Source: Labilibaculum sp. (GTDB taxonomy: Bacteria; Bacteroidota; Bacteroidia; Bacteroidales; Marinifilaceae). Taken from it: a stretch of DNA of 64,000 nt. Made by a program: the position numbers and the translations under genes. Shown here in pieces: positions 3,724 to 34,971 of the stretch (the stretch's first letter is position 1; every line of letters starts with the position of its first letter). The notes under the pieces were generated by a model. The model ran no database searches, was not told the origin of the DNA, and saw only the letters and a program-made list of their open reading frames with translations. The stretch is from NCBI GenBank assembly GCA_016342745.1, contig JAEINT010000021.1, positions 1-64,000 of the forward strand. The letters run 5' to 3'.

Positions 3724-3741
3724 GTGGCGGAGAAAGAGGGA
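3724..3741. repeat. 18-bp direct repeat of the tRNA-Ser 3' end (putative distal att site)
   Basis: GTGGCGGAGAAAGAGGGA is identical to 34954-34971, which covers the last 17 nt of the tRNA-Ser gene plus one base. It has the same orientation as that copy. Identity stops sharply on both sides. Chance occurrence of an 18-bp match is very unlikely. The natural reading is the far attachment site of an element integrated at the tRNA 3' end. Confidence 0.65.
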
Positions 3742-3932
3742 GTATATTGATTGTGTTAAAGCATCATATTTATAGTCTTTAAGAGCACTGTGGTTGGTTA
3801 GTGTTCACTTGGGAGTTCACTCATGTTGATAACTAAGTATTGTCATATTCTCCAAGGGTCTTTTTAAATTCACCAATTTGGTTGTTATCCTAGCTTAAGC
3901 CCAAAAGAAGAACATCTCCCGCATTGGTATGC

Positions 3933-4310
3933 TTAGTCATATTTCCAAATACAGTTCTTGTGATCATCGACGAATTGTGAATAAGCATAGTTATGACCAA
4001 ATACATGTATGTTTTCAATTATTTCGGTATGATGTTGATGTTTAAATATTTTTACTATGAAATTTGCTCGTCCATTCATACAACCAACAGTTGAAATGAT
4101 CCAAAGCTCATCACGAATCCTAACATCTCCATTTTTGTATTTATATCCTTTCAAAATCTTACCTCAGGGACCAATGTTGAGTTCTTTAAATTTAGGAGGA
4201 TACTCATATTCCATGCAGACCGACAAATTCAGTTTTACATTTTGAACATGAACATTTTCGCCAGAATGAATATTGATCAAGGTGGATGATTTAATAATGA
4301 TCGGATTGAG
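3933..4310 (-). pseudogene. Decayed reading frame of unknown function
   Basis: Reading leftward from about 4310, one frame stays open for roughly 125 codons except for a single TGA at 4166-4164. The part after the stop (73 codons) has a protein-like composition and ends with stretches such as NIHVFGHNYAYS and DDHKNCIWKYD. The part before it includes MEYEYPPKFKELNIGP. I recognise no family. It could also be a chance frame; the continuity across the stop is the only argument for a former gene. Confidence 0.3.
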
Positions 4311-4899
4311 ATGATTTCATGAGTTATACAACTTCTTTTTTTTGCGATTTGAGGCGGTAAGGTAAATAATCCATCAAAATATGAAGGAGGGGAATCCTTT
4401 CTTTCTTTTTTGAAAAATTAATCTTAAATCTCCAAATCTAATAGTTGCATTTACTAATTTAATTTGGGATATATTGAATCAGGTGGTGTTAGTTGGGGAG
4501 ATCATTTGGATTCTGAGATGATACTCGATCAAAACATTTGGAGAACCCTGCGAGTCTAAATGTTGAAGATAATTTGTATTCCATTATAAGGTTAACTATA
4601 TCTGTTTATTCTCTCAAAGATACTTTTGTTAAAGTATTACAGCTTTAAAGCTTGCTACTATTTGCTTAATTGTTTAATTCAAAAATATTACCTATTGTAT
4701 TTAGGGATCTTTTAATTGCAAATTAGAGTTTAATCATTTGTAAGTCTTTTTATGTGGCTGATAATGTGTGTGGTATTGTGTTTTTTAGTCTTCCTGAATT
4801 AACATTTATAGCATAGGATGGTAACATTAGTAACATGTCTGTTATCATTTAAACCCTTAATCGTTAACAAATTTTAACATGTAAGAATAAGACCCGTAA

Positions 4900-4907
4900 T
4901 ATATTTG
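4900..4907 (+). promoter_or_regulatory. Promoter -7 element for susC
   Basis: TATATTTG matches the Bacteroidota TAnnTTTG consensus and lies 41 bp before the susC ATG. No TTTG is found at the expected -33 position (around 4877), which fits a promoter needing an activator such as the locus's own hybrid two-component protein. TAACAT/AACATGT motifs recur around it (4822, 4831, 4875, 4909). Confidence 0.5.
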
Positions 4908-4948: not shown

Positions 4949-7900
4949 ATGATGATTAAAAAAGCGAAACAAAAGATTCCGGTGCAATCCTTATCAAGGC
5001 AGTTGCTTATTTTTACTGGAATTGCGCTAATGTTGCTTTCTGCAACTGTGGCATATGGGCAGACAGAACGAACCGTAACTGGTGTTGTTGTATCTGCGAC
5101 AGACAATACGCCAATACCAGGTACGAATGTAGTTATAAAAGGAACTACGATTGGTGGAAGTACCGATATCGATGGAAACTTTTCTATTCAAGTTAACGAA
5201 AACGATGTCGTAGTTTTTTCTTTTATTGGTTTTAGATCTCAAGAAGTTCTTATTTCCAATCAGCAGGTAGTAAATATTATATTGGTTGAAGATGTATCCA
5301 GTCTTGATGAAGTCATCGTTGTTGGTTATGGTGTTCAACAGAAAAAATTAGTGACTGGTGCTACTTCTCAGATGAAGGGAGATGCAATTCAAAAGCAAAA
5401 TGCAACTAACCCTTTACAAGCCATGCAGGGGCAAACGGCCGGTGTTAATATTGCGTCTACTTCTGGGCAACCAGGATCTGACATGAGAGTAACAATTCGG
5501 GGTATTGGTACGGTTGGGGACTCTCAACCACTCTATATTATTGATGGAGTTCAAGGAGATATCACAACGGTTAATGCTTCGGATATTGAAAGTCTGGATG
5601 TGTTAAAAGATGCTGCGTCTGCCGCCATTTATGGTTCTCAGGCCGCTAATGGTGTAGTTTTGGTTACTACAAAACAAGGAAAAGCAGGAAAGGCTCAAAT
5701 TTCCTTTGATGCTTATTATGGTGTGCAAAATGTAGCAAGAACCACTGATATGCTGAACAGTAATGAATACATTTCAATCATGCAGGAGCAAGCCTTAAAC
5801 TCAGGGTCTGCTTTGTACGATGCAAGTGTTTTTGAAGGTGGGGCCGATACCGATTGGGTGAATCAAATGTTTGATGACAATGCTGTTACTGAGAATTATT
5901 CACTTGGAATTACCGGAGGAACAGATGCTTCTGTTTATGCTATTTCCTTATCCTATATTGATCAGGAAGGTGTTGTAGGCGGAGCAGATGTATCGAATTA
6001 TGAACGATATGGATTCCGTGTTAATACAGAGCACAAATTGTATGAAAATATTTTAAAGATTGGCCAGCACATGAACTTCAATTATATTAAGAATAATGGA
6101 GTTGCAGTTGGCAATCAATACAGCAATAGCTTAAGAGGTGCGTTTGGTACGTCTCCTTTATCACCAGTTTATAGTGATAATAATATTTATGAGAGTCCTT
6201 ATAACGACACATCTAATTCACAATGGAATACTGGCGATGGTAATCCTTACGGAGCATTAATGACTAACAATAAAAATGCTAATGATCAGCAAAAGATGCT
6301 TGCTGATATTTATGCGGAGTTAGAGCCTGTTAAAAATTTAAAAATCAAATCATTGTTTGGTTTTAACTATTATGCTTCTGAATATAGAAGTTATTCACCA
6401 TTGTATCAGTTCTCTATTTATTCGTACAACAATGATCACACCACAGTGAATCAAAGTATGAGTAAAGGACATACCATGACTTGGACCAATACAGCAAGTT
6501 ATAGTTTTGATATTAATGAAGTGCATAAGTTTGATGTGTTGGCAGGTATGGAAGTTGTTCGATTTCAGGGAAGTGATTTAAATGGCTCGAACTGGGATTT
6601 GCTCTCACAGTTTAATAATTTCGGAGGAGCTTATCTTAATAATACAAGTGGACAAGCAGAGTTAGATAAAGATCCGGAAACTGGTGACGTAAAAGGAGTT
6701 ATTGAGAAACGTACAGTTGGAGGTGGACCGGCGGTAAAATCACGTCGTCAATCCTATTTTGGTCGTTTGGGATACAACTACAAAGAGAAATATATGCTAA
6801 ATGCGACTTTGCGTGCAGATGCTTCATCAAAGTTTACCAAAGGCAATCGTTGGGGGTATTTCCCATCTGTTTCAGCAGGTTGGGTGGCAACAAATGAGTC
6901 GTTTATGGAAGGTGCTAATGAGTGGATGGACTTTTTAAAGGTTCGCGTAAGTTGGGGACAAGTAGGGAACCAGTCTATTGATGATTTTCAATATGCAGCA
7001 CCTATTAATACATCAACTAATTTTTCAGGATCTGATCCAGCGGCTAATTATGTGTTTGGTACTGCATTGGTAAATACACCGGGAGCTTATCCAAGTAGAT
7101 TATCCAACCCGAATGTAAAGTGGGAAACCTCAGAACAAACCAATATTGGTGTAGATGCTTATTTTATGAATAGTCGTTTGGGTGTTAATGCTGATTTTTA
7201 TGTAAAAACAACTAAGGACTGGCTGGTTACAGCACCAATTTTAGCAACTGCAGGCGCATCTGCTCCTGTTATTAATGGTGGTGATGTTAAAAATACCGGG
7301 ATTGAGTTAGCCTTGTCTTGGTCTGATCATATAGGCGATTTACACTACCATATAGGTGTTAATGGAGCTTATAATAAAAACGAGGTGGGGCAAATTCCTA
7401 CTGATGATGGAATTATTCATGGCTTATCAAATATGTTGTATGATAATTCACCAGAGTTTTACCGGGCTGAGAATGGTCATGCTATTGGATATTTCTGGGG
7501 CTATGAAACAGCAGGGATATTCCAAAATGAAGCTGAGATACAAGCCTGGCGCGATGCGGGCAATGGGATTTTGCAGGACGGCGTAAAACCAGGTGATGTG
7601 AAATATGTAGATCAGGATAAAGATGGAATTGTAAATTCTGACGATAAAATAGATTTAGGTAGTGGTATTCCCGATTTGACTTATGGTTTTAATTTTAATT
7701 TGGACTACAAAGGATTTGATTTGGCAATTTCTGCTAATGGTGTTGTAGGTAATGAAATTGTACAGTCGTACCGGAACCAGGGAAATAAGAAATCAAATTA
7801 CACAACAGCCATATTGCAGCGCTGGACTGGTGAAGGAACCTCCAATAACATGCCACGTGTTTCAGAAACTAATGTAAACTGGCAATTCTCTGATCTTTAT

Positions 7901-8149
7901 ATTCAAAATGGAGACTTCTTGCGAATTAGCAATATTGCACTGGGATATGATTTTAGCAGATTAACTCAAAACTCACTATTCAGTCAGTTAAGATTATATG
8001 CCGCTGTTCAGAACGCCTTTACTTTTACAAAGTATGATGGTATGGATCCGGAAATAGGATATGGAACAGAAAGTTGGGTGTCGGGTGTTGATTTGGGATA
8101 CTACCCACGTCCTCGTACTTTCCTGATAGGTGTTAATCTTAAGTTTTAA
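4949..8149 (+). CDS. susC: SusC-like TonB-dependent outer-membrane glycan transporter
   Basis: 1066 aa. A signal peptide ends near AYGQ (about residue 38). It is followed by a CarboxypepD_reg-like domain (about 45-125), the linker LDEVIVVGYG typical of SusC proteins, a plug domain containing IRGIGTVGDSQPLYIIDG and LKDAASAAIYGSQAANG, and a long 22-strand-type barrel ending in an aromatic-poor VNLKF. SusC imports oligosaccharides across the outer membrane in a complex with SusD. First gene of the locus, 21 bp before susD. The first ATG (4949) is followed at once by a second (4952); either may start the protein. From the enzymes around it, the cargo is probably xyloglucan oligosaccharides (inference). 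Confidence 0.95.
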   Translation: MMIKKAKQKIPVQSLSRQLLIFTGIALMLLSATVAYGQTERTVTGVVVSATDNTPIPGTNVVIKGTTIGGSTDIDGNFSIQVNENDVVVFSFIGFRSQEVLISNQQVVNIILVEDVSSLDEVIVVGYGVQQKKLVTGATSQMKGDAIQKQNATNPLQAMQGQTAGVNIASTSGQPGSDMRVTIRGIGTVGDSQPLYIIDGVQGDITTVNASDIESLDVLKDAASAAIYGSQAANGVVLVTTKQGKAGKAQISFDAYYGVQNVARTTDMLNSNEYISIMQEQALNSGSALYDASVFEGGADTDWVNQMFDDNAVTENYSLGITGGTDASVYAISLSYIDQEGVVGGADVSNYERYGFRVNTEHKLYENILKIGQHMNFNYIKNNGVAVGNQYSNSLRGAFGTSPLSPVYSDNNIYESPYNDTSNSQWNTGDGNPYGALMTNNKNANDQQKMLADIYAELEPVKNLKIKSLFGFNYYASEYRSYSPLYQFSIYSYNNDHTTVNQSMSKGHTMTWTNTASYSFDINEVHKFDVLAGMEVVRFQGSDLNGSNWDLLSQFNNFGGAYLNNTSGQAELDKDPETGDVKGVIEKRTVGGGPAVKSRRQSYFGRLGYNYKEKYMLNATLRADASSKFTKGNRWGYFPSVSAGWVATNESFMEGANEWMDFLKVRVSWGQVGNQSIDDFQYAAPINTSTNFSGSDPAANYVFGTALVNTPGAYPSRLSNPNVKWETSEQTNIGVDAYFMNSRLGVNADFYVKTTKDWLVTAPILATAGASAPVINGGDVKNTGIELALSWSDHIGDLHYHIGVNGAYNKNEVGQIPTDDGIIHGLSNMLYDNSPEFYRAENGHAIGYFWGYETAGIFQNEAEIQAWRDAGNGILQDGVKPGDVKYVDQDKDGIVNSDDKIDLGSGIPDLTYGFNFNLDYKGFDLAISANGVVGNEIVQSYRNQGNKKSNYTTAILQRWTGEGTSNNMPRVSETNVNWQFSDLYIQNGDFLRISNIALGYDFSRLTQNSLFSQLRLYAAVQNAFTFTKYDGMDPEIGYGTESWVSGVDLGYYPRPRTFLIGVNLKF

Positions 8150-8170: not shown

Positions 8171-9805
8171 ATGAACAAAATAAAATTAAATATTCTAACA
8201 TTAGGAATGGCGGGTCTGGGATTATTCTCTTGCTCAGAATCATTCCTGGATGTAGAACCGGAGACCTCCATTTTTGATAGTAACTTTTACAAAACAGAGG
8301 CTGATTTTGAAATGGCTTTGGTCGGTTGTTACGACGGATATCAGAGAACAACATCCGATGGAGGAACAGCTTTCTACATAGCTTCAGAGCTTCTATCAGA
8401 TGAATGTTTTGGTGGAGCAGGTGCGGGGGATGATCGAAACAATCAACTTTTAGATCGATTTGATTTAAGTCAGGCACCTTCCTACAACGATATTTTTAAC
8501 GAGACATGGAAATCCTATTATGCTGGAATTTTTCGTTGTAATAAGTTGCTAACGAAACTGGATGGTATTAGCTGGGAAGGAAAAGAAGATACTCGTAACA
8601 GAATAGAAGGTGAGACTCGTTATTTACGTGCGGTATTGTATTTCGATTTAGTACGATTATTTAATAAAGTGCCTTTGCTGCTTGAACCTACTACCGATAA
8701 TGTGGTACAATCGGAACCATCAGCTATTTATAAAGTAATTGCTGAAGATTTAAAGTTTGCTGCTGAAAATATTAATCAGCCTGCCTATTCAGCTTCATGG
8801 GCTGCCTCAAATGATGGCCGAGCTACACAATGGGCTGCTAAAGCCGTGTTGGGAAGAGTATTCTTATTTTATACAGGTTATTATGGTACTGCCGATTTAG
8901 AGGGAGTGGTTGATAAAACCTATGTGTTGGCAGGTCTTGAGAATGTGATATCAGAAGGTGGATTTTCTCTTATTTTAGATTATAAAAATCTATGGCAAGC
9001 AGCATCTAGTATACCTGATATAGAAAACAATACGTTGGTTAGTACTTGGGCTGGAAGAGGAAACTCGGAAGCTGTATTTACGCAAAAATTCAACTATACT
9101 TCCGATTATAATGGAAATGTTGATGGAAACAGATGGTTGGTAATGATGGGATTGAGAGAAACCACCTCTTCACCTTATGGATACGGATGGGGATTATGCA
9201 CAGTAAATCCTAAAACTTTCCAGAGTTTTGATACTGATGATCAGCGGAAAACAGCCTCAGTTATTGATTTTGTTTCGGAAGGGGTTATAGATGCTCTTGA
9301 TTTATCCAAATGCCGTGAATATACCGGATATTGTAATAAAAAATACATCCCTCTTGCTCTTCCTGATGGAACTTATGTTGTTGAAGGTTTAGGTGAAGGT
9401 GATAACCAAATTTCACAATTTCAGGATTTTATTGTGATGCGCTATTCTGATGTTTTATTAATGGCTGCTGAGTTGGGCAGTGCAAAGGCTCAAACATACT
9501 TTGATGAAGTAAGAGGACGGGCAGGTTTAGGTACTAAAACTGTAACGAAGGAAGCCATTATGGCAGAACGTCGAGTAGAGTTTGCTTTTGAAGGAATTAG
9601 ATATTGGGATTTATTGCGTCAGGGAATTGATGTAGCCGCGGCTGCGATTGCAGAAGATGGATCAGAAGTATTAAGTGCTAATGTTGCTGATTTTATTACG
9701 ATCACAGAGGCAAACATCAAAAAAACGAATGGTTTTATGCAAATTCCAAATACACAAATTACTCTTTCGAATGGTGTCTTGAAGCAAAATGCAGGATGGG
9801 AGTAG
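8171..9805 (+). CDS. susD: SusD-like surface glycan-binding lipoprotein
   Basis: 544 aa. The signal peptide ends in a lipobox with the lipid-bearing cysteine at residue 21 (GLFSCSES). Then comes FLDVEPETS, typical of the SusD N-terminus, and the helical TPR-like region that embraces SusC. The C-terminal RagB/SusD domain contains DVLLMAAELGSAKAQTYFDEVRGRAG and EFAFEGIRYWDLLRQG, which are hallmark motifs. It forms the lid of the SusC channel on the cell surface and binds the incoming oligosaccharide. It is cotranscribed with susC. Confidence 0.95.
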   Translation: MNKIKLNILTLGMAGLGLFSCSESFLDVEPETSIFDSNFYKTEADFEMALVGCYDGYQRTTSDGGTAFYIASELLSDECFGGAGAGDDRNNQLLDRFDLSQAPSYNDIFNETWKSYYAGIFRCNKLLTKLDGISWEGKEDTRNRIEGETRYLRAVLYFDLVRLFNKVPLLLEPTTDNVVQSEPSAIYKVIAEDLKFAAENINQPAYSASWAASNDGRATQWAAKAVLGRVFLFYTGYYGTADLEGVVDKTYVLAGLENVISEGGFSLILDYKNLWQAASSIPDIENNTLVSTWAGRGNSEAVFTQKFNYTSDYNGNVDGNRWLVMMGLRETTSSPYGYGWGLCTVNPKTFQSFDTDDQRKTASVIDFVSEGVIDALDLSKCREYTGYCNKKYIPLALPDGTYVVEGLGEGDNQISQFQDFIVMRYSDVLLMAAELGSAKAQTYFDEVRGRAGLGTKTVTKEAIMAERRVEFAFEGIRYWDLLRQGIDVAAAAIAEDGSEVLSANVADFITITEANIKKTNGFMQIPNTQITLSNGVLKQNAGWE

Positions 9806-9821
9806 TTTTAAAAAATATGAT

Positions 9822-11675
9822 ATGATGAAAAAACTATATAATATATTAACATTTCTGATTCTATCAGTAGTAGTGTATACGAGTTGTACACCTGATAACT
9901 ATGATCTGGAAAAAATAGATGTCAAATCTGGAGATTTAGTGGAAGGCATAGCCTATAAAATAGAGCACGATGCCACAAATCCAAACATCGTTTATTTGAC
10001 AAGTTTGATGGATTCCAAATATCAAGTTCTTTGGAATCATTCACAGGGCAGAAGTCAAGAGAGTAAGGTAACTCTAAAAATACCTTTCCCTGGGATTTAT
10101 GATGTTCAGTTTGGAGTACAAACACGTGGAGGATACGTATATGGTGATTCTACAAATTTTGAAGTAGAAGATATGTACACTGGTTTTATCGAAGATGAAT
10201 TATGGTCGTTTTTAACTGGTGGTGTTGGACAATCGAAATCATGGCGCTTGGATTATGGCGACTATGGTCTTGCTGCCGGCCCTATAACTTATTGTGCACC
10301 GGAGACAACATGGACTGAGTGGCAAGCCGGTACTGCTTCAATTGGTTGGGCTCCGGCATGGAGTGGTAATACCTGGATTATTGAAGAAGCTGATAAAGAC
10401 AGTAGAATGACTTTTAGTCTGATTGGTGGTGCTGTGATGACTACGCATAAAGTTACCGAAGGAGTGGATGAGTCAGGAACCTTTTCTTTGGATGTAGATA
10501 ATCATACTCTAACTACTACAGATGCAACCATTCTTCGTTCCAACAATTTTATTGCCAATGCAACTAACTGGAACCAGAATTTGGTTATTTTGGAACTAAC
10601 AGAAAATCAATTAATGGTAGGTGTAAGAAGAACAAATGATGAGGGTGATTACCTGTACGTTTGGAACTTTGTATCGGATGAATACGCTGAAAATTATGTG
10701 CCGGAAGATCTACCTGATCCTGAACCAATATTACCAGATGGCTGGCAGGAAGATGTTTCTAAAGTAGTGAGTTATGACATTAAATGGGTGTTATCTCCTG
10801 AAACCCCTTTTAACTGGGCTAATTTAGATGGTTCCTTAATGAATGGTGATTGGGTTTCTCCTGAAACATATCCCGACTGGACAGGTTTTAATGCCACGAT
10901 TCCGGAAACGTACAGTAATTTCTCGTTAACGATTAATTCTCAGGATAATAGTTTGGCAATGGTATTGCCTGATGGCACAGAGTCTAGTGGAACGTATGAG
11001 TTAGATGAGAAAGGTGTCTATACATTTACTGGTGTTACTCCTGAATTCAATATTTGCTCTTGGGTAAACCTATCAACAACAGCAGAAAATCAATGGCGAA
11101 TTCTTTCCATTGAAAAAGATCTTTCAGGCACTGTATCAGGAATGTGGGTTGGTGCTTTATCAACAGAAAATCCAGAATATATGTGTTATAAATTGATCCC
11201 TCAATTTGTAGGAAGTGGCGATAATGATCCTCAAGGTACTGAACTAGACTTTGATAACTCGAAATTGGTATTTGGTAATCTGGAAGATAATAATGATAAG
11301 TTTCGTATTGAAATATATAGTGACTATGGTGATACAAAAGCTAATCCTCCAGTTGTTCCTACCGATATTATATTCGGAAATCGTGTTGAAATAACATTTA
11401 CTCTTGGGGGAATTACATTGCTTGATGGTGCGGTTGGCAGCTATAAAACAGCTATTCAAATGGCAGATAACGATTGGTCTATTTCAGATTGGGGTGATGG
11501 AACAGGTGCTGGTGAAGCAACGATTACCGGGGACGGTACCTATACTGTGACTTGGGCGCCTTCAAGTCCTTATGATACTGCTTTGGTATTTTGTGTGGAC
11601 ATTATTGATTTAGTACCAGATCTCTCAGATCTAACTGCAGTAACTGCAACTATAGATAAGATCGTTATGTATTAG
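9822..11675 (+). CDS. Surface glycan-binding lipoprotein in the SusE position
   Basis: About 617 aa from the ATG at 9822. An upstream in-frame ATG at 9789 lies inside susD and would push the signal peptide away from the N-terminus. The sequence MMKKLYNILTFLILSVVVYT is followed by SC, giving a lipid cysteine at residue 22. An N-terminal PKD/Ig-like segment comes next (about 25-110, with a YDVQFGVQTRGGY strand). After it are repeated tryptophan-rich regions (WSFLTGG, SKSWRLDYG, WAPAWSGNTW, DWGDGTGAG) of the kind that pack against glucan rings. Position and architecture match the non-SusD surface glycan-binding protein of other loci. Sequence-level specificity cannot be read. Confidence 0.75.
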   Translation: MMKKLYNILTFLILSVVVYTSCTPDNYDLEKIDVKSGDLVEGIAYKIEHDATNPNIVYLTSLMDSKYQVLWNHSQGRSQESKVTLKIPFPGIYDVQFGVQTRGGYVYGDSTNFEVEDMYTGFIEDELWSFLTGGVGQSKSWRLDYGDYGLAAGPITYCAPETTWTEWQAGTASIGWAPAWSGNTWIIEEADKDSRMTFSLIGGAVMTTHKVTEGVDESGTFSLDVDNHTLTTTDATILRSNNFIANATNWNQNLVILELTENQLMVGVRRTNDEGDYLYVWNFVSDEYAENYVPEDLPDPEPILPDGWQEDVSKVVSYDIKWVLSPETPFNWANLDGSLMNGDWVSPETYPDWTGFNATIPETYSNFSLTINSQDNSLAMVLPDGTESSGTYELDEKGVYTFTGVTPEFNICSWVNLSTTAENQWRILSIEKDLSGTVSGMWVGALSTENPEYMCYKLIPQFVGSGDNDPQGTELDFDNSKLVFGNLEDNNDKFRIEIYSDYGDTKANPPVVPTDIIFGNRVEITFTLGGITLLDGAVGSYKTAIQMADNDWSISDWGDGTGAGEATITGDGTYTVTWAPSSPYDTALVFCVDIIDLVPDLSDLTAVTATIDKIVMY

Positions 11676-25333: not shown

Positions 25334-26731
25334 ATGTGTTTAAAATCTGTAATTAGGGTAAGCCTTGTGCTTATTGTTGTATGCTTATTTTCTAAGCTCT
25401 CTTATTCGAATGTTTCAATACCTGCAATTTTTGGGAATCATATGGTAATGCAACAAAATTCTGAGGTGAAACTCTGGGGCTGGGGCAAGCCGATGGAAAA
25501 AGTAAAGATAACTACTTCTTGGAGTAATGATACTCTTGAAACTGTTACGAGTAATAATGCGAAATGGGCAGTAGTTCTAAAAACTCCTGATGCTGGTGGT
25601 CCGCATAGCATAAAAATAGATGGATACAACTCTGTTGTGATTGAAGATATTTTGATGGGAGAAGTATGGTTGCTTTCAGGGCAGTCGAATATGGAATGGA
25701 AAACCAGTTTTGGAATTAATAATGTTGGGGAAGAGGTTCTAAATGCCAACAAAAACGAAATTCGTTTCTTTTCAGTAACACTTAAAACATCGCCAACAAA
25801 ATGCATTGATGTTTCAGGTAAATGGGTTAAATGTACACCGGAAAGCATGAAAGATTTCAGTGCAATTGGTTACTTTTTTGGAAAAAAACTGAATGAAAAA
25901 CTTCAAATTCCTGTTGGCTTAATCAGTTCTAACTGGGGAGGAACGCCGATTGAAACATGGATTCCAGAAAAGGAAATTTTGGCTTCGAATGAGTTAACAG
26001 AATCTGCCCAAAAAGTACCTTATTTTCCATGGGCACCCAATATGCCGGGCTGTGTTTACAATGCTATGATTGCGCCAATTATGCCTTTCCCTATAAAAGG
26101 AGTTTTATGGTATCAAGGAGAAGCTAATGTAGATAATTCAGCAACATATACGCAATCACTTGAAACCATGGTAAGAAGCTGGCGGAAAGGGTTTAAAACT
26201 GATTTTGCTTTTTATTTTGCTCAAATTGCTCCCTATAAACACTATGCACCGGGTGCCGGAGTTAAAGTTCGTGAAGCTCAACGTCGGGCATTGGCATCAA
26301 TTGCAAAATCGGGCATGGTAGTTTTGAGTGATATTGGTGATACACTTAATATTCATCCAGCTAATAAAATTGATGCCGGAGAACGCTTTGCAAGTCTGGC
26401 ACTTAATAAATCTTACGGATTAGCTGAATTTCCTTCATCAGGACCGCTATTCAAAGATTTCACAATCAAAGGAGCAGAAGTTGAAGTTGTTTTTGATTAT
26501 GCTGAAGGCTTGCATTGTATTGAGGATGAGGTGAAATGTTTTGAATTAGCCGCTGAAGATGGAATCTGGTATACAGCGGATGCCCGTATAAAAAATGATA
26601 AAATAATTATTCAGTCGAAAGCCGTAAAGCATCCCGTAAATGTAAGGTTTGCGTGGACTAACACTGCTACACCTAAGCTTTTTAACAAAAATAATTTACC
26701 AGCTTCTTGTTTTACGACATCGAATTTTTAA
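25334..26731 (+). CDS. SGNH-type carbohydrate O-acetylesterase, sialate-O-acetylesterase-like (CE20-like)
   Basis: 465 aa with a type I signal peptide (to about residue 25). The fold starts with a beta-domain (IPAIFGNHMVMQQNSEVKLWGWG). The block I serine is Ser 118 in LLSGQSNMEW. Further blocks are SSNWGGTPIETW, IKGVLWYQGEANV, and DIGDTLNIHP with the catalytic Asp/His pair. Proteins of this type occur in xyloglucan loci, where the founding CE20 member deacetylates xyloglucan oligosaccharides. Sialic acid chemistry is unlikely in this setting. It starts a second gene block after the regulator. Confidence 0.75.
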   Translation: MCLKSVIRVSLVLIVVCLFSKLSYSNVSIPAIFGNHMVMQQNSEVKLWGWGKPMEKVKITTSWSNDTLETVTSNNAKWAVVLKTPDAGGPHSIKIDGYNSVVIEDILMGEVWLLSGQSNMEWKTSFGINNVGEEVLNANKNEIRFFSVTLKTSPTKCIDVSGKWVKCTPESMKDFSAIGYFFGKKLNEKLQIPVGLISSNWGGTPIETWIPEKEILASNELTESAQKVPYFPWAPNMPGCVYNAMIAPIMPFPIKGVLWYQGEANVDNSATYTQSLETMVRSWRKGFKTDFAFYFAQIAPYKHYAPGAGVKVREAQRRALASIAKSGMVVLSDIGDTLNIHPANKIDAGERFASLALNKSYGLAEFPSSGPLFKDFTIKGAEVEVVFDYAEGLHCIEDEVKCFELAAEDGIWYTADARIKNDKIIIQSKAVKHPVNVRFAWTNTATPKLFNKNNLPASCFTTSNF

Positions 26732-26762: not shown

Positions 26763-27839
26763 ATGTTGAGAAATTTTATTTATCTGTCTTTGATTTTTGT
26801 TTTGGGATCTTGCTCTGTTCAAAACAAGAATATCACATTTGACAATCCAAATATTAGTTACGAAGGTCGAGTTGGGTTTCGTTCTGATGCTGCAGAGCTT
26901 TCCTGGTCAGGAACATCTGTAAATATACAATTTGAGGGAAGTGGTATTGCTGCCACTTTTCAGGATTTAGATACTGCAAATTATTACAATGTAATTATTG
27001 ACAATCAGGTAATTTCAAAATTGCATACCGATACGCTGAAAAGAAAATACATACTTGCCTCCGGTTTGGCGGAGGGAAAACATCAGGTGGAATTGTTTAA
27101 GCGCACAGAATGGGATAAGGGGAAAACATTGTTTTATGGTTTTGAATTGCATGAGGGTGCAAAACTTCTTCCTCCGGCTGAACCTAAAAAGAGAAAGATA
27201 GAATTTTACGGTAATTCTATTACAAGTGGTTATGGAAACGAAGATTATAGTGGAAAAGATCGCTCATATGGATATTTTCAGAATAACTTTGAAACATATG
27301 CAGCAATAACAGCTCGTCATTTTGATGCGCAATACCATTGTATTTCAAAAAGTGGTATTGGTATTGTTGTTAGTTGGTTTCCATTGATTATGCCTGAAAT
27401 GTATGATCGAATCGATCCAAACGACGCAACATCGAAGTGGGATTTTTCCAAATATATACCCGATGTGGTAGTCATCAATCTCTTTCAAAATGATTCGTGG
27501 ATAGTTAATATTCCAAAAAATGAGCAGTTTAAAAATAGGTTTGGGACGCAAGCACCGGATTCAACTACTATTATTGCCGCTTATGCTGATTTCGTAAGTT
27601 CCATTCGAGGTAAATACCCTAATGCAACTATTGTTTGTGCATTGGGTAGTATGGATGCAACCAAAGAAGGATCTGTATGGCCAGAGTATGTGAAGAGTGC
27701 TGTTCATCAATTGAATGATTCTAAGATACACACCTGTTTTTTTCCATTTAAAAATTCAGGAGGACATCCAAATGTTAATGAACATCATGCAATGGCTGAC
27801 AAATTAATAGGGTTTATTGAAGACAATGTTGAATGGTAA
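26763..27839 (+). CDS. CE2-type acetyl esterase lipoprotein
   Basis: 358 aa. Lipoprotein signal with cysteine 17 (VLGSCSVQ). An N-terminal jelly-roll domain (about 20-140) is followed by an SGNH hydrolase domain with the nucleophile Ser 152 in FYGNSITSGYG and the C-terminal histidine in GGHPNVNEHHAMAD. This two-domain build is that of carbohydrate esterase family 2, which removes acetyl groups from xylan, glucomannan and related glycans. It is 31 bp downstream of the CE20-like gene. Together they would clear acetyl groups that block the glycosidases. Confidence 0.78.
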   Translation: MLRNFIYLSLIFVLGSCSVQNKNITFDNPNISYEGRVGFRSDAAELSWSGTSVNIQFEGSGIAATFQDLDTANYYNVIIDNQVISKLHTDTLKRKYILASGLAEGKHQVELFKRTEWDKGKTLFYGFELHEGAKLLPPAEPKKRKIEFYGNSITSGYGNEDYSGKDRSYGYFQNNFETYAAITARHFDAQYHCISKSGIGIVVSWFPLIMPEMYDRIDPNDATSKWDFSKYIPDVVVINLFQNDSWIVNIPKNEQFKNRFGTQAPDSTTIIAAYADFVSSIRGKYPNATIVCALGSMDATKEGSVWPEYVKSAVHQLNDSKIHTCFFPFKNSGGHPNVNEHHAMADKLIGFIEDNVEW

Positions 27840-28302: not shown

Positions 28303-30381
28303 ATGGTAAAGAAAGTCAATTTAGCAGTTTTATTAATCGTTGGTTGTATCGCGTGTTTATCGGCACAGGAATATTTCCCTAAGAAGGATTTGATGTCTGT
28401 TGGTGTGTATTATTATCCGGAGCAATGGTCACCTGAACAATGGGAGAGAGACATTAAAAATATTGCCGATAATGGATTCGAATTTATTCATATGGCTGAA
28501 TTTGCCTGGGCTCAGATGGAACCATCTGAAGGCAAGTATGATTTTTCATGGCTTGATAAAGTAATTGAGTTGGCTGATAAAAATAAGCTGAAAGTGATTT
28601 TGGGGACACCGACCCCTTGTCCTCCGGTATGGCTCGGAATTAAGTATCCCGAAATATACATGCAAGATGGTAATTATCAATCTAAAGAACATGGAACCCG
28701 TGCAAATCTGTCATTATCCAACCCGATTGTTTTGGAGTATACACAAAAAATTGTTGATGCAATGGCTAAGCATTATGCACACAACAAAGCTGTGTTTGGT
28801 TGGCAAATCGATAACGAGCCGGAAGCCAAAGAGGATTACAGTCCGTCTGCACAATTGGCATTTCAGGAATGGTTGCAAAATAAATATGCAAATATTACGG
28901 TACTGAATAAGGCATGGGGAACATCCTTTTGGAGTCAATTGTATTCATCTTTTGAAGAAGTTAGAATTCATAACGCTCAAAATGTAGGTTGGTGGGGTGC
29001 AAATCCTATTGCTTTATTGGATTTTAAACGTTTTACAGCGGATACGCAAGCATCTTTTTTAGATTTTCAGGCAGAAGAATTGCGGAGATATATTGATGAA
29101 TCACAGTTTGTAACCACAAACTATGTAGCAAAAGGCAACCAGACGGATCCGCGGAGAAGTAAAAAACTTGATTTTGCTTCATTTACGGCTTATCCAAATT
29201 ATGGAAGCAGTAATCTGGGAGACTTGGGTTTTCGATTAGGTGACCATTCGGTGTTAATGTATGCCAATGACTATTATAAGTCGATAAATGGTATTACAGG
29301 AGTAATGGAATTGCAGCCAGGACAGGTAAATTGGGCCAATTATAATTCGTTGTTGCAGCCCGGAACAGTTCGCATGTGGTTGTGGCATTGTTTTGCCGGA
29401 GGGAGTTCTTTCGCATGCACCTATCGCTACAGGCAAGTACTTTACGGTGCCGAGCAATATCATCATGGTGTAGTTCAAACCGATGGGCTTACTTTGAGTC
29501 AGGGTGGAGAAGAGTATGTTCAGGTTATTAATGAAATTAATAAGTTAAGGAAGAAGTACAGTAAGAATTCGCAAATACCGGTAAGTAGTAAGATGAGGAA
29601 AACGGCTATTATGTGGTCGTTTGATAACCTTTGGAATCTGGAAAGACAGAAGCAAACGAACCAATGGGATACATGGAAACACATGCAGCGCTATCAGGAA
29701 ATTCTTCATTCGTTTGGTGCACCTGTTAGTTTTATATCCGAAGAAGACAATTTTGATGATTATGAGTTTATTGTAGTTCCTGCTTATGAAATGGTTGATG
29801 AGGAACTGGTGAATAAATGGAAAAAGTATGTTGCAAAAGGTGGTAAGCTTATTATTTCACCACGAACCGGAGCTAAAGATAAAAATGCGCATCTGTGGGA
29901 GCGTAATTTGTCTGGAATTATGAATGATCTTATTGGTGGTAAAATCCATTCCTTCGATATGCTTCCATCTGGTAAGCAAGCTACTATTTTAATGGATGGA
30001 CAAAATTATCAATGGAGTTCATGGGGAGATTTAATTACACCGGAAGATAAAACAGAGGTTGTAGCAAGTTATGCCGATCAATTTTATAAAGGAACTGCCT
30101 GTATATTAAAAAATGAAATTGGAAAAGGGCAAGTATGGTATATTGGTGTTGAATCGGCTGATGGTAAATTGGAACGGGATGTTTTAAAAAGTGTTTTTAA
30201 GCAAAATAAAGTACCCGTAGAAAATTATCCCAAAGGTGTTTTTGTTCAGTATCGCGATGGTTTTATGGTGGCCGTTAATTACTCTTCTGAAGAGTTTGTC
30301 TTAGATTTTAATGGAGATTACCTAATAGGAGATAGGGTATTGAAACCAGCAGATGTTGCCGTGTGGATTATGAAGGAGTAG
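28303..30381 (+). CDS. GH42 beta-galactosidase, secreted
   Basis: 692 aa with a signal peptide ending near LSAQ. The GH42 barrel starts with VGVYYYPEQWSPEQWERDIKNI and has the acid/base Glu 172 in WQIDNEPEAK and the nucleophile Glu 336 in GVMELQPGQVNW. A trimerisation/GATase-like domain (about 415-600, VVPAYEMVDEEL) and a C-terminal beta-domain complete the family length. It would remove beta-1,2-galactose from xylosyl side chains. Known Bacteroides xyloglucan loci use GH2, and others GH35, for this step, so GH42 would be a functional substitute (inference). Confidence 0.88.
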   Translation: MVKKVNLAVLLIVGCIACLSAQEYFPKKDLMSVGVYYYPEQWSPEQWERDIKNIADNGFEFIHMAEFAWAQMEPSEGKYDFSWLDKVIELADKNKLKVILGTPTPCPPVWLGIKYPEIYMQDGNYQSKEHGTRANLSLSNPIVLEYTQKIVDAMAKHYAHNKAVFGWQIDNEPEAKEDYSPSAQLAFQEWLQNKYANITVLNKAWGTSFWSQLYSSFEEVRIHNAQNVGWWGANPIALLDFKRFTADTQASFLDFQAEELRRYIDESQFVTTNYVAKGNQTDPRRSKKLDFASFTAYPNYGSSNLGDLGFRLGDHSVLMYANDYYKSINGITGVMELQPGQVNWANYNSLLQPGTVRMWLWHCFAGGSSFACTYRYRQVLYGAEQYHHGVVQTDGLTLSQGGEEYVQVINEINKLRKKYSKNSQIPVSSKMRKTAIMWSFDNLWNLERQKQTNQWDTWKHMQRYQEILHSFGAPVSFISEEDNFDDYEFIVVPAYEMVDEELVNKWKKYVAKGGKLIISPRTGAKDKNAHLWERNLSGIMNDLIGGKIHSFDMLPSGKQATILMDGQNYQWSSWGDLITPEDKTEVVASYADQFYKGTACILKNEIGKGQVWYIGVESADGKLERDVLKSVFKQNKVPVENYPKGVFVQYRDGFMVAVNYSSEEFVLDFNGDYLIGDRVLKPADVAVWIMKE

Positions 30382-30447: not shown

Positions 30448-32067
30448 ATGAAAAATATAAAAATGAGACATGTTAGGTTTGTAATTAGTGCCATAATATT
30501 TTTCTTTTTTTATCATATTGTTACTGCACAAACGCCAGATAAATTTAGGAATCCGATATTACCAGGATATCATCCAGATCCTTCAATATGCAGGGTAGGT
30601 GATGATTATTATTTGGTTAATTCCTCTTTTGTGTGGTATCCGGGAATTCCAGTATTTCATAGTAAAGATTTGGTGAATTGGGATCTAATTGGGCATGCTA
30701 TTAATCGCCCTGATCAACTTGATTTTAGTGGATTGCCAGATAAATTAGGTGTGTTTGCTCCAACAATTCGTCATCATAATGGCGTGTTTTATATTATCAA
30801 TACATGTGTGGCATGTAAAATGAACTTTTACATCACAGCGACTAATCCTGCCGGCCCCTGGTCTGATCCTATTTGGTTGCCAGAAGCAGAGGGCATTGAT
30901 CCATCATTGTTTTGGGATGATGATGGGAAGTGCTATTATACTGGCATGAAAGGCCCTAAAAAGAAGCAATGGAAAGATCAGTGTGTGATATACAATCAGG
31001 AGCTTGATTTGGAGAAGCAAAAGCTGGTTGGAGAAGAACAGATCTTAACTTATGGACATGCTAACAATGCTTCGTATCCAGAAGGTCCACACCTTTACAA
31101 AATAAATGGAAAATATATGTTGATGATATCGGAAGGAGGAACTGGTATGTATCATGCATTAACAGTTCACCATAGTGATTCTATTAATGGACCATTTATT
31201 TCAAATTACATTAATCCTGTTTTATCGCATCGTCAGTTTGGGGAGAATTACCCATTACAGGCAATTGGGCATGGCGATTTGGTACAGACACAGAACGGTG
31301 AGTGGTGGTGCGTTTTACTTGGAAAAAGGCGAATTGAAAGGTTTACAACATTAGGGCGGGAAACTTTTCTTGCAAAAGTCGAGTTTGAAGGAAATACACC
31401 CGTTTTTAATCCTGGCTACGGTAAAGTATTGAATGTACAAAAAAGACCAAACTTACCTTGGACACCTGTTGAAAAAGATCCTGTAAGAGATGATTTTAAT
31501 GGAACAAAAATAGGATTAAAGTGGTGTACGATTAGAACACCGCTAAAAGAGTTTTATAAGCTTGAAAATGGAAAACTAAGCATCGATCTACGTCCTGAGT
31601 TAATGGATAGTTTGGTGAATTCTTCAATATTGTTGCAGCGAATTGTAGATCACAAATTTGAATGCATGACAAAAATGCGTTTTAACACTACTAAAGTTAA
31701 CGAGCAAGCTGGTTTGACTATTTATAGAACCAATGAAAATCATTACAAGCTATTAAAGAGTAAAAATTCATTGGTGTTAATAAAATCATTTGAAGGTGTA
31801 AAAACAGAAGTTGCAAGAGTACCATATGTTAATAAAGAGGTTTACCTAAAGGTGGAAGGCAACAATTTGGATGTTCAATTTAGTTATGGAGAATCAAAAG
31901 AGGATTTGAAATCAATTGGTGGAATACAAAGTTTAAAGGTAATTGCTGATGGACATGGAAATCAATTCAATGGACCAGGTGTTGGTGTTTACGCTACTAG
32001 TAATGGTAAAAAAACAAAGGCGTTTGCAAACTTTGAATGGTTTGATTATCAAGACTTAACGGAATGA
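30448..32067 (+). CDS. GH43 family glycosidase (alpha-L-arabinofuranosidase/beta-xylosidase)
   Basis: 539 aa. Signal peptide ends near VTAQ; either the ATG at 30448 or that at 30463 may be used. The five-bladed propeller opens with NPILPGYHPDPSICRVGDDYYLV; general base Asp 44, pKa-modulating Asp 151 (GIDPSLFWD) and general acid Glu 212 (YPEGPHLYK) are all present. A C-terminal beta-sandwich (about 350-535) is typical of GH43_12-like enzymes, the subfamily found in the B. ovatus xyloglucan locus, where it removes arabinofuranose. Last enzyme gene of the island, 66 bp behind GH42. Confidence 0.85.
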   Translation: MKNIKMRHVRFVISAIIFFFFYHIVTAQTPDKFRNPILPGYHPDPSICRVGDDYYLVNSSFVWYPGIPVFHSKDLVNWDLIGHAINRPDQLDFSGLPDKLGVFAPTIRHHNGVFYIINTCVACKMNFYITATNPAGPWSDPIWLPEAEGIDPSLFWDDDGKCYYTGMKGPKKKQWKDQCVIYNQELDLEKQKLVGEEQILTYGHANNASYPEGPHLYKINGKYMLMISEGGTGMYHALTVHHSDSINGPFISNYINPVLSHRQFGENYPLQAIGHGDLVQTQNGEWWCVLLGKRRIERFTTLGRETFLAKVEFEGNTPVFNPGYGKVLNVQKRPNLPWTPVEKDPVRDDFNGTKIGLKWCTIRTPLKEFYKLENGKLSIDLRPELMDSLVNSSILLQRIVDHKFECMTKMRFNTTKVNEQAGLTIYRTNENHYKLLKSKNSLVLIKSFEGVKTEVARVPYVNKEVYLKVEGNNLDVQFSYGESKEDLKSIGGIQSLKVIADGHGNQFNGPGVGVYATSNGKKTKAFANFEWFDYQDLTE

Positions 32068-33433
32068 TGGTCTTTGATTATAGAAATCGTGTTATAATAA
32101 CTTCTTGTATGTATTTTTCTTTTTTAAGGCCATTCTAAGAGCCTTCACTATATTTTTGCACATATATTATCAATTTAATTCATAACCTATTATCCTATGA
32201 TTGTAAGCATCGGTAGCTAATGAATATGCAAATTTAAATCTTATCATCTTAAAATATATTTTGCTAATTTATTTAATCTTTTAAATTGAGATATAAGTGA
32301 GTTTTGTTAATTTCTATATTATCAATTTCTTGTTGGTTTCTGCTTCCGTTGTAATCTGGTTTTTATCTATTATCTTGAATATTAAGAATTATATTTTTTA
32401 ACAATTACAATTGAACGGATTTACTATAAGTTGATCTATTTAGGGATTAATTTAAATGAAAATTTAAGTCTAAAAAAGATTCTAACCTCAATCTTAAGAG
32501 GGTAATGCAAGATGTGTTTTTGTTCCACAAAAACTCTTGTGCCTTCCAGCAGGGACTTTTCATCCCAGGATGAAAAGCTTGATTGTCCAAAGGACAAAGT
32601 AAGGAGATAAGAGTTGGTGATTTATATATTTACTTGATAATAAAAATACCTGTGTGATAGATAATTTATTTTTACAGAAGATGGATGGCTGCCGAAACCT
32701 TAGTGATATTTTAATTCGCATTCAGGTTTCCAAAGCCTATTAAAGCCATATGATCTTCGTTTATCACTTCAGATCAGATGGTGTTTTTTGAGGTTTTTAT
32801 ATTCCCAAAAGATTTAAGGTAGCATTAATGGTTTGCATCCGTTAATTCCTTCTTTCTGAGAGACAAAGTTATTTCCATTTTGAAACCAATTTGAATAATG
32901 GTATAAAACCGAATCGAATTGTAAGATACAGACCTTAATACATGCGTTGGCAAAGTTGGAATCGGTCGTGGATTGACAAAAGCGTTCGGCATAAACGCGC
33001 TCAATCATTTCAAAGCGTTTTTTTTCTTGCGCACAGGCCAGGCAGCAAAGAGCTTTGTATTGATTGCATTCTGCAAAATACAAAGCCCATTGCCAGCCTG
33101 CTTAAAACACATTGAAATGATTTTCACAGCCGGCGCACAGGCCATTTATTCCGTTTCCTTTTGGCCATTCATGACCTGAAATTAAAAAGGGATGCTTACG
33201 CAAGTATGAAGGCCTCCTTGTATGAAAATAAGATGAAAATAAAATGGTTGATTTACAAGTTAAGTTATCACTTTGAAGATGTACTAAGCAAGTTTATGTT
33301 TTGGTGCGACCAAAACCTTAATAACATCCCGTTGGTCTTTATTTAGAAATTGTATAGTAAAAGAATATTAAAAAGGGGAGAGTTAAAATGGGAGAACAAT
33401 CTTATTCTATGGTAGTGGAATAGGTCAAGTAAA
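32068..33433. other. Gene-poor 1.37-kb stretch between GH43 and the integrase
   Basis: No intact gene is convincing. Three short hairpins sit close together at 32515-32598 (GTTTTTG...CAAAAAC; CTTTTCATCC and GGATGAAAAG; TTGTCCAAAGGACAA). A minus-strand open stretch (about 32814-33100) encodes a Cys-rich sequence (YKALCCLACAQEKKRFE), but frames on both strands are open here and the start is not an ATG. The segment 32973-33180 looks richer in G+C than its surroundings. It may be a decayed gene or a non-coding repeat. Confidence 0.5.
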
Positions 33434-34648
33434 TTATAATATTTTTCTAAGTTTGTTCATATCCCTACTTACTTTTTCATTGACCACCTTCGAATAGATT
33501 TGAGTAGTACGGATATTTTTATGACCAAGCATAGAACTAATTGATTCGATAGGTACACCATTGGCTAAGGTTACTGTAGTTGCAAATGTATGTCTGGCGA
33601 TATGGAAGGTTAAGTTTTTGTCTATAGAAGCCAAGTCTGCCAGTTCTTTTAAATAAGCATTTAATTTTTGGTTACTCAAATGTGGGAGAATATGCTCCTC
33701 TGTTTTTTTTGCAGGGAACAATTTGTATTTATCAATTAGCTGTATTGCCTTTGGAAGCAAAGGAATGTTAGAAGGTACCTTGGTTTTCTTTCGTTGTGTA
33801 ATAATCCATAGATTACCATCTATACCATTTCTAATGTTATTTGTTGTAAGATTTATAACATCAATATATGCTAATCCTGAATAGCAGGAAAAAACAAATA
33901 GGTCTCGAACAATATCTAAACGAGGTGTCGATAGTTTTAAATTCTGAAGTTTTAGCAATTCTTCTTTGTTTAAGTATTCACGCTTAACTTCTACTAAAGT
34001 GGTTTTGTATTTAGAGAAAGGATCTTTGCTTAGCCAATCATTTTTGATCGCAATATTAATTATTTTTTTTAAATTTTTGATGTACTTATAAGTGGTGTTG
34101 TTATTGCATTTCCGAACAGTTTTAAAATAGTGATCCAAATCGACTATAAATGAATACTTAATCCTAAATAAATCAATATCCGTTAGCTTGTATTGATGTT
34201 TTAGAAAACTCTTAATATGATCTAATGTCGTAATATACCTTTGAATAGTAGCAGGAGCATATGAAATACCTATTAACTCTGAAATTTGCTTGTTATGGTA
34301 TTCAAATACCTGTATCAGAGTTTTTTTGTTTTCATCAACGCCAAGAAATCGAGCTTTCAATTTTTTAGCAGAAATAAATTCACCATTTTTCACCATTTCA
34401 GTATGATGCTCATAGATTGCATTTTTAAGAGCATCTAAAAATTGATTGATTTGAATACCACCTTTCTTTTTAGGAAAAGCTTTATTCAATTTGCTATTCC
34501 AATTTTGGAGATTAATGTATCTGCCTGTTGCAATCTCCACACGCTCCTCATCTACAGAGATACGCATATAGATAGGAGCCTCACCCTGTTTGTTAGAGCG
34601 ATTCTTTCGAATTAAGAAGCTGATATTAAGTGTCGAAAAGGTGTTCAT
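33434..34648 (-). CDS. Tyrosine recombinase (site-specific integrase) of the island
   Basis: 404 aa. An N-terminal arm-binding domain (FLIRKNRSNKQGEAPIYMRI, about 10-90) is followed by a SAM-like core-binding domain (about 105-205) and the catalytic domain (about 220-400). Visible catalytic residues are His 349 and Arg 352 in HIARH, His 376 in MLGHKNIRTT and the nucleophile Tyr 385 in TQIYSKV. The box I motif reads CYSGLAYIDV, with Ala 260 where most tyrosine recombinases have Arg; this substitution is common in Bacteroidota integrases such as that of CTnDOT. The gene starts 306 bp from the 3' end of tRNA-Ser and reads away from it, as expected for the enzyme that inserted the island. Confidence 0.88.
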   Translation of the reverse strand: MNTFSTLNISFLIRKNRSNKQGEAPIYMRISVDEERVEIATGRYINLQNWNSKLNKAFPKKKGGIQINQFLDALKNAIYEHHTEMVKNGEFISAKKLKARFLGVDENKKTLIQVFEYHNKQISELIGISYAPATIQRYITTLDHIKSFLKHQYKLTDIDLFRIKYSFIVDLDHYFKTVRKCNNNTTYKYIKNLKKIINIAIKNDWLSKDPFSKYKTTLVEVKREYLNKEELLKLQNLKLSTPRLDIVRDLFVFSCYSGLAYIDVINLTTNNIRNGIDGNLWIITQRKKTKVPSNIPLLPKAIQLIDKYKLFPAKKTEEHILPHLSNQKLNAYLKELADLASIDKNLTFHIARHTFATTVTLANGVPIESISSMLGHKNIRTTQIYSKVVNEKVSRDMNKLRKIL

Positions 34649-34954
34649 GCTTTAATAAAATCAATTCATACTAAATGTGTATTTTTCAGAATCTTGATTA
34701 ATTATTGAATGATGTTTAATAAATTTACTAAAAATCAAGCACATTAAAAATTTTATTTTTGAGGTTGATGTGATTTAATCTGTTTTGATTCAGTTTGTTA
34801 TGTGGGTGTTGGTGAACAAGGAGGGTGTGTAGATTTGTTCACCGGAGAGTTCCCGTATCTAATGGTTTTATTTATACTAGAATGAATAGGGTGAAAACAA
34901 AAAAGACTGTAAATCAAGGGATTTACAGTCTTTTGGTTTAGGATAAATCCTAAG
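34649..34954. other. Region between integrase and tRNA-Ser
   Basis: It holds the tRNA terminator (34901-34934) and GTTCCCGTATCTAATGGT (34849-34866), which recurs near hrpB at 601-618 with two differences. AT-rich sequence at 34655-34800 may contain integrase arm sites, but I cannot define them. Confidence 0.45.
34901..34934 (-). terminator. Rho-independent terminator of tRNA-Ser
   Basis: A perfect 14-bp stem (34901-34914 with 34921-34934) around a 6-nt loop, 20 nt past the tRNA CCA end; on the minus strand it runs into TTTTTT. Confidence 0.8.
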
Positions 34955-34971
34955 TGGCGGAGAAAGAGGGA
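34954..34971. repeat. 18-bp direct repeat at the tRNA-Ser 3' end (putative proximal att site)
   Basis: Same 18 bp as 3724-3741. It comprises the 3' T-stem, the 3' acceptor strand, the discriminator base, CCA and one further base of tRNA-Ser. Insertion at such a site leaves the tRNA gene intact. Confidence 0.65.

Follow-up and report, generated by a model that had tools for sequence, protein, structure and literature searches.

In the present study, we analyzed a 64,000-nucleotide stretch of contig JAEINT010000021.1 from Labilibaculum sp. (assembly GCA_016342745.1), referred to below as the window, which contains a 31.2-kb island between two direct repeats at the 3' end of a serine tRNA gene. 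The island carries a polysaccharide utilization locus (PUL) and an integrase gene, and we consider it likely to be an integrative mobile element in the 3' end of tRNA-Ser(TGA) with a xyloglucan PUL as cargo, probably a mobilizable element without a relaxase. Integrative and mobilizable elements (IMEs) of this kind, having an origin of transfer (oriT) but no relaxase, are termed iOriT in the available text of PMC11389934. The comparison set comprised 56 genomes of the family, in which G000 is the genome of the window and G070 the sole other genome of the genus, called the same species; C40 and C58 denote contigs of G000.

Gene content and boundaries of the island

The only tRNA detected in the window by ARAGORN is tRNA-Ser(TGA) (34955-35042, minus strand; also matched by Rfam), which is the integration site. 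The proximal attachment (att) copy, GTGGCGGAGAAAGAGGGA, lies within its 3' end at 34954-34971 (plus strand), and the distal att copy, an exact 18-bp copy of the tRNA 3' end, lies at 3724-3741 (plus strand); the two are identical at 18 of 18 positions, have the same orientation, and start 31,230 bp apart. With up to three mismatches allowed, these were the only matches in the window, against 0.00 expected from 100 shuffles. Genome-wide, with at most one mismatch, three matches were obtained, namely the two exact window copies and one at C40:37084 with a single mismatch, which is the distal end of a related element; none was found on the other strand or with a reversed control pattern. A tyrosine recombinase (integrase) gene with the Pfam domains Arm-DNA-bind_5, SAM-like, and Phage_integrase lies 3' of the tRNA (33434-34648, minus strand). 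The repeat and the recombinase had both been claimed in a first-pass annotation of this DNA, and both were found as described, with no third repeat copy in the window; direct repeats of a tRNA end with an adjoining integrase are what an integrative element at a tRNA gene is expected to have.

The element ends directly behind the tRNA in an inverted repeat and terminator hairpin (34900-34953, minus strand; z -8.28). Since this arrangement is present directly 3' of the tRNA in most loci of the related elements, the element appears to bring a replacement terminator. The recombinase would join attP to the tRNA gene and restore a complete tRNA, behind which the element would supply its own terminator. 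Base composition does not set the island apart from its surroundings, its G+C content being 35.9% as compared with 37.4% and 35.0% in the flanks.

Twelve PUL genes, all on the plus strand, are located between the repeats. They begin with a SusC-like TonB-dependent transporter (4949-8149; Pfam Plug and CarbopepD_reg_2), a SusD-like glycan-binding lipoprotein (8171-9805; Pfam and structure match), and a gene without a match to any Pfam family (9789-11675), which from its position and lipoprotein-like start is a putative surface glycan-binding protein in the SGBP-B position. These are followed by a BACON and glycoside hydrolase family 5 (GH5) protein, a putative endo-xyloglucanase (11757-13439), a GH31 protein with PA14, a putative alpha-xylosidase (13521-16379), a GH95 putative alpha-L-fucosidase (16445-18865), and a GH3 beta-glucosidase-like protein (18843-21071). 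A hybrid two-component system (HTCS) regulator (21140-25234; Pfam Reg_prop, Y_Y_Y, HisKA, HATPase_c, Response_reg, and HTH_18) precedes a SASA-type carbohydrate acetylesterase (25334-26731), a carbohydrate esterase family 2 (CE2) protein (26763-27839), a GH42 beta-galactosidase-like protein (28303-30381), and a GH43 protein with a C2 domain (30448-32067). The enzyme families were assigned in a Pfam scan of the 13 large open reading frames (ORFs) of the island. By homology, the SusC/SusD pair, the HTCS, and the xyloglucan-type GH5 and GH31 proteins together make up a xyloglucan PUL, which bears out the earlier claim of a xyloglucan-type locus with its own regulator between the repeats. A prophage or satellite identity was rejected, there being no phage-type gene among these 13 ORFs.

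Empty site and related elements

In G070, window positions 564-3741 and 34954-42982 map side by side and overlap by exactly the 18-bp repeat. At this junction, 60 bases to the left and 40 bases to the right are identical to the window flanks, and the single repeat copy is identical at 17 of 18 positions, with one change (AAAG to GAGAG context). The island is absent, and hrpB adjoins tRNA-Ser at a single att copy, as the first-pass annotation had anticipated for an empty site in a close relative. Elsewhere in G070, no close copy of the PUL was found, the best matches being approximately 70-73% over no more than about 1 kb of DNA around a GH3 gene. The comparison involves a single genome pair and would fit a site that was never occupied and a lost island alike.

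Regarding hrpB, which had been taken as the original neighbor of the site, the comparison led elsewhere. The DNA outside the island at the distal repeat (3422-3744, minus strand) stems from an older element with an integrase of a second family, of which a terminator-bearing end and an integrase remnant of 18 amino acids (83%, E 3.6e-7) are left as a scar. It is 84% identical to C40:36809-37104, which adjoins another integrase, and the same sequence follows tRNA-Ser in G021:C77 and G008:C2. Among 39 relatives, a full-length hrpB orthologue was present in just two others. We rejected an ancestral position of hrpB on the basis of this scar and of the rarity of the orthologue, and hrpB is probably not the ancestral neighbor. 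The hrpB segment (564-3534) is 98.4% identical between G000 and G070, as compared with 92.9% in the other flank, and was perhaps itself transferred recently.

At a cut-off of E<=1e-120, the integrase family of the island comprises 14 loci in 10 of the 56 genomes, with integrases at least 69% identical. Eleven of these loci are at the 3' end of tRNA-Ser (TGA or GGA), tRNA-Arg, or transfer-messenger RNA (tmRNA); two of the remaining three are at contig ends, and one (G056) is untyped. Seven elements are bounded by tRNA-tail repeats, with lengths of 31.2 (window), 63.4, 35.5, 40.1, 44.5, 47.2, and 105.8 kb. SusC homologues are present in four of the seven (window, the G011 element at tRNA-Ser(GGA), G055, and C40) and were not found in the two elements of G006 or in the tmRNA element of G011. 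At the same site in G040, the same molybdenum cofactor (Moco) gene and tRNA-Ser(TGA) as in the window precede a 77% identical integrase, an oriT-like DNA block also present in the window (block A, described below), mobC, a relaxase, and genes of the cyclic oligonucleotide-based antiphage signaling system (CBASS) type. These CBASS-type genes (G040:C85 2364-4325) encode a SMODS nucleotidyltransferase and SLATT_6.

The PUL itself has relatives in G055 and G060, both genomes of another genus, in which 11 of the 12 genes (all but GH43, which has no orthologue in either copy) are present. In G055, they are in an element with an 83% identical integrase at tRNA-Ser(GGA), with protein identities of 82.5-99.4%; in G060, they lie by a 70% identical integrase at tmRNA and approximately 4 kb from a complete type-2 mobilization operon. 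DNA identity in the PUL is 90% over 23.4 kb (G055) and 84-89% (G060), and that of the chromosomal backbone, 75-78% over 13 kb beyond the tRNA, is lower. The stretch from SusC to the start of SusD (approximately 5.2-8.7 kb) is 98-99% identical to G055, with most of the rest at 75-95%, and appears to be an internal recombination tract. A contig end in G021 holds a diverged xyloglucan-like PUL (GH31 59%, GH3 63%, and GH42 51%) next to a block A of the window type. The closest integrases, those of G011 (96%) and G057 (95%), occur with other cargo or on a short contig. With the relatives of the PUL adjoining diverged integrases, the PUL appears to move between vehicles, with vehicle and cargo reassorting.

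Considering the tRNA genes themselves, both tRNA-Ser(TGA) genes of G000 (C15 and C40) are occupied, and their acceptor stems contain an A-U pair (GGAGAAA/TTTCTCC); both of those in G070 (C1/C2) have G-C at the same position and lack this element. A G-U wobble is seen in several of the occupied tRNA-Ser(GGA) genes. On integration, tRNA 3' ends may be exchanged, with compensation following later.

Mobilization-like DNA beside the integrase

Between the GH43 and integrase genes lie two blocks of DNA that in related elements belong to mobilization regions. The first-pass annotation did not list these remnants (32490-33379) and stated that no relaxase or conjugation gene was visible, which holds for intact genes: no relaxase or mating-pair gene was found among the 13 large ORFs by Pfam, and tblastn with two relaxases gave no match in the window. 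The region nevertheless contains a truncated NikA-like gene and two mobilization leaders, of which one is oriT-like.

The oriT-like block, block A, is 119 bp of multi-hairpin DNA beside the integrase (32490-32608, plus strand; core 32506-32587), which elsewhere is usually followed by mobC. There are 18 copies in 13 of the 56 genomes, and mobC follows in 12 of them, with its ATG 102-105 nt after the start of the hairpin; the six copies without mobC are those of the window, G011, G021:C55, G055, C40, and G006. We defined close (type-1) relaxases as matches to the G040 relaxase at E<1e-100, the next matches being at E 1e-26 or weaker, and all nine have block A 391-413 bp upstream, including the G011 relaxase, which has an internal stop. 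A TraM gene lies within approximately 5 kb of the type-1 relaxase in G070, G011, and G021 and on another contig in G040, the TraM search having covered four of the nine relaxase loci. The gene order in G070 is transfer (tra) genes, coupling protein, DUF3945 protein, block A, mobC, and relaxase.

Block A was also compared between copies with and without mobC. Across the 82-nt core, the mean identity of gene-less to mobC-bearing copies is 91.7% (72 pairs), as compared with 90.4% among mobC-bearing copies (66 pairs), whereas in the next 330 bp the corresponding values are 63.5% (61.8% for shuffled sequences) and 74.9%. The identity of block A exceeds that of the integrase gene at three diverged loci without mobC (94 vs 79% in C40, 98 vs 79% in G055, and 87 vs 76% in G006); in G011, the values are 97 vs 94%. 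The DNA between block A and the integrase in gene-less copies, which includes the second leader, is 74-77% identical (63% for shuffled sequences). Block A also folds better than shuffled sequences (z -4.39).

On plasmids, block A matched 18 records, all typed as conjugative, at E 8e-3 over a 32-base stretch. The hairpin alone matched 51 records at E<=10, of which 30 were typed by MOB-suite as conjugative, 4 as mobilizable, and 17 as non-mobilizable. We examined nine of these loci individually, and in seven the hairpin is 46-83 bp upstream of an annotated mobC on the same strand; one of the seven is from Sphingobium, outside the phylum, and two were typed as non-mobilizable. In the other two, a hypothetical gene and then a relaxase follow (Alistipes) or nothing is annotated (Fibrella). 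A scan of viral contigs with the block A pattern gave no matches. A dispersed repeat of the miniature inverted-repeat transposable element type was rejected for block A: the genome has just two copies, each next to an integrase of this family, and related copies precede mobC.

The second block, leader B (32906-33160, plus strand), elsewhere precedes an operon of nikA-like and relaxase genes. It is common to 11 aligned loci, with a mean column identity of 75%, and is followed by complete NikA-like and relaxase genes in three of them (the G011 tmRNA element, G060, and C58); the intact NikA-like protein and relaxase of these relatives match Pfam NikA-like, MobC, and Relaxase. The window retains a 5' fragment of the NikA-like gene after leader B (33161-33379, plus strand), in which about 73 of 179 codons align with the intact homologue and a stop occurs at about codon 62. 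A protein-coding reading of this block was rejected: Pfam gave just a weak chance match for two short minus-strand ORFs, and the block proved to be the leader and start of a nikA-like gene on the plus strand.

Proposed mode of transfer, probable substrate, and comparison with known elements

An integrative and conjugative element (ICE) has its own relaxase and type IV secretion genes and a canonical IME its own relaxase, and the island has neither. Cis-mobilizable elements (CIMEs) are att-flanked elements without a recombinase, and the integrase of the island is intact. Block A, a putative oriT assigned by sequence comparison from its homology and position, and leader B with a truncated NikA-like gene, in an element with no relaxase and no mating-pair genes, make the island look like an iOriT. 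The description of the island as integrative rather than self-transmissible was thus an understatement. Since the oriT-like launch site has been kept and the relaxase is gone, the island probably hitch-hikes on other elements. The observations behind this reading are the repeats, the empty site, the element family, the PUL relatives in other genera, the homology of block A and leader B, and the helper-type genes present elsewhere in the genome. From these we infer excision, nicking, transfer, and growth on xyloglucan. The island would descend from mobilizable or conjugative elements of this family, with loss of mobilization and tra genes and retention of block A and leader B; its own integrase would excise it, a relaxase supplied in trans would nick it, and its export would be through the type IV secretion system of a conjugative element in the same cell. 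The earlier prediction that one recombination event can move the trait between strains would accordingly apply within a cell, and helpers would be needed between cells.

Regarding such helpers, the C40 element, whose integrase is 84% identical, occupies the second tRNA-Ser(TGA) and carries block A as well as a CTnDOT-type tra operon. TraG P-loop, TraM, and DUF4138/TraN exceed their Pfam cut-offs and TraK its NCBIfam cut-off, and TraJ and the coupling protein MobC are below theirs, though at E 4e-44 and 2e-249; no close relaxase was found in the C40 element. In C58, leader B (76%) is accompanied by a 37% identical integrase, a type-2 relaxase (74%), and a NikA-like protein (71%). Both are plausible helpers, as candidates only. 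In a tentative extension that we regard as possible and on balance doubtful, three elements of one genome would share a transfer machine, the island contributing its integrase, the oriT-like block A, and leader B, the 106-kb PUL element of C40 the secretion system and coupling protein without a close relaxase, and C58 the relaxase with the matching leader B. The C40 element additionally contains five SusC loci and several HTCS regulators, which makes it a multi-PUL element of conjugative type.

Several observations weigh against an iOriT-like nature of the island. Taken singly, the plasmid matches of the hairpin are weak (E 4e-3 to 7), and block A could be a promoter or leader rather than an oriT. 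No covariation was found in block A (1 of 32 pairs changed on both sides), and its arms are invariant. We rejected a structured RNA for the same reasons, the Rfam matches in the window being the tRNA and the Moco riboswitch only; block A is better explained as a DNA site bound by a protein than as an RNA. With the NikA-like gene truncated and leader B less conserved, the mobilization region may be plain debris. G000 contains no relaxase close to type 1 (best E 2.4e-12), the G060 element showed no distal repeat within the 80 kb examined, and an excisionase was not identified in the island, in which small ORFs were not systematically searched.

One alternative is a decayed, immobile ICE or IME, in which the PUL was inserted once, mobilization and tra genes were lost, and the island became fixed in the strain with block A and leader B as debris. 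The truncated NikA-like gene, the missing mobC, and the lack of any relaxase or tra gene inside are in line with decay, and block A is possibly just a recently shared fragment. However, the integrase is intact and evidently constrained (96% to G011), both att sites are exact, and block A outlasts the integrase gene in conservation in the three diverged gene-less loci, so that we regard decay as unlikely. A similarly low probability is given to accretion at a tandem hot spot, by which the island would move mainly with, or by recombination into, neighboring elements and not alone. Another element family has left its scar in the distal flank, two element ends stand in tandem in G055, and G011 and C40 share the order of this integrase family followed by a second one; in G070, however, exactly the inter-repeat unit is missing while the scar and hrpB are kept, as is expected if the unit moves alone.

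A further alternative concerns the substrate, in that the PUL may target another glucan, such as mixed-linkage glucan or arabinoxylan. GH5, GH3, GH43, and acetylesterases also occur in other PULs, the best match of the GH43 protein among solved structures is the beta-xylosidase 5z5d, followed by BoGH43A and BoGH43B, and SusD is distant from the Bacteroides ovatus xyloglucan SusD (57 bits). The GH31 protein, however, is closest to the alpha-xylosidase BoGH31A (5jou, 1285 bits), and the GH5 protein to Cel5D (5oyc, E 1.1e-108) and BoGH5A-type enzymes (3zmr, E 1.2e-99); we take 3zmr to be BoGH5A and Cel5D to be a xyloglucanase. The title of PMC5816542 is in agreement. GH95, whose closest solved structure is an alpha-L-fucosidase, and GH42, closest to beta-galactosidase structures, suit fucosyl-galactosyl side chains. 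The SASA-type protein resembles carbohydrate esterases including 7kmm, and the CE2 protein resembles Cel5C/Axe2-type esterases labeled endoglucanase E and Axe2C. Fucosylated, acetylated xyloglucan appears to be the best reading of the substrate, and a different glucan is improbable. The plant or algal glucan proposed in the first-pass annotation is narrowed to xyloglucan on the basis of homology. Least probable is entry of the PUL by homologous recombination of large chromosomal segments with an incidental tRNA and integrase context, for although the SusC to SusD-start tract indicates that recombination inside the PUL does occur and the hrpB flank is unusually similar between strains, the boundary of the empty site falls exactly at the att repeats and the PUL occupies different tRNA or tmRNA sites in three hosts.

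The island shares with the xyloglucan PUL of B. ovatus the SusC/SusD pair, GH5, GH31, GH3, GH43, and HTCS, the B. ovatus locus having GH2 in place of the GH42 of the island. With the xyloglucan utilization locus of Cellvibrio japonicus, as given in the available text of PMC4285296, it shares GH31 and GH95, and it has GH42 where C. japonicus has GH35. The island also lacks GH9 and has additional SASA and CE2 esterases. Relatives of the TraJ, TraK, TraM, and TraN of CTnDOT-type ICEs are found in C40, and relaxases of the MOBP type (PF03432), as in NBU/Tn4555-type IMEs, in related elements, whereas none of these tra or relaxase genes is in the island itself. Besides these systems, the island resembles iOriT elements and mobilizable genomic islands in its integrase, att repeats, oriT-like sequence, lack of relaxase and mating-pair genes, and proposed dependence on helpers. 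As far as the accessible part of PMC5704250 (2017) goes, relaxase-less elements were reported in Firmicutes and Proteobacteria, and the few Bacteroidetes IMEs were canonical, that is, relaxase-bearing; the island differs in its Bacteroidota host, PUL cargo, and predicted oriT. PULs have been described on ICEs and on mobilizable plasmids (PMC8845570 and PMC6907783, in their available portions), and the former describes gut Bacteroides PULs for porphyran, agarose, and lambda-carrageenan on ICEs, IMEs, or plasmids. Those PULs, like that of the island, are complete loci on an element that is transferable or, for the island, probably so; they differ in that their vehicles are ICEs or mobilizable plasmids and the island has no relaxase. 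PMC6907783, in the text available, lists 47 SusC/SusD loci on mobile genetic elements and demanded a relaxase for an IME call, so that such a screen would not call the island an IME. In the literature searched, which mostly excluded subscription papers, we found no Bacteroidota PUL element described as having an oriT but lacking a relaxase. With iOriT elements and PULs on ICEs or mobilizable plasmids each known, an iOriT-like element with a PUL as its cargo would thus be new for this phylum.

PUL repertoires differ strongly between strains, and according to the accessible part of PMC8845570, most of the variable PUL regions studied were devoid of mobile-DNA functions. In the island described here, an integrase and an oriT-like block are all that remains beside a complete PUL, and the empty site is exact to the base. 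If three elements do share a transfer machine as suggested above, many Bacteroidota PUL islands that appear immobile for want of mobility genes could be hitchers with only an oriT, and the spread of PULs without visible vehicles would be easier to explain. The block A hairpin and leader B may serve as a sequence marker for re-examining such islands, and the three elements in one genome offer a concrete system for the trans-mobilization of a glycan trait.

Concerning the surroundings of the island, G070 has approximately 37 kb of extra DNA beyond hrpB (at window positions 564-571), located between two copies of the 8-bp sequence GTGCGATT, of which the window has one; this DNA includes an HTCS, a GH115-like protein (assigned by eye), and others. 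The first 77 bases of the window (1-77) are identical to the start of C26 and the end of C47 and represent an assembly-graph junction. On the other side of the tRNA, a molybdenum cofactor riboswitch (39272-39414, minus strand; Rfam) is located upstream of the Moco genes.

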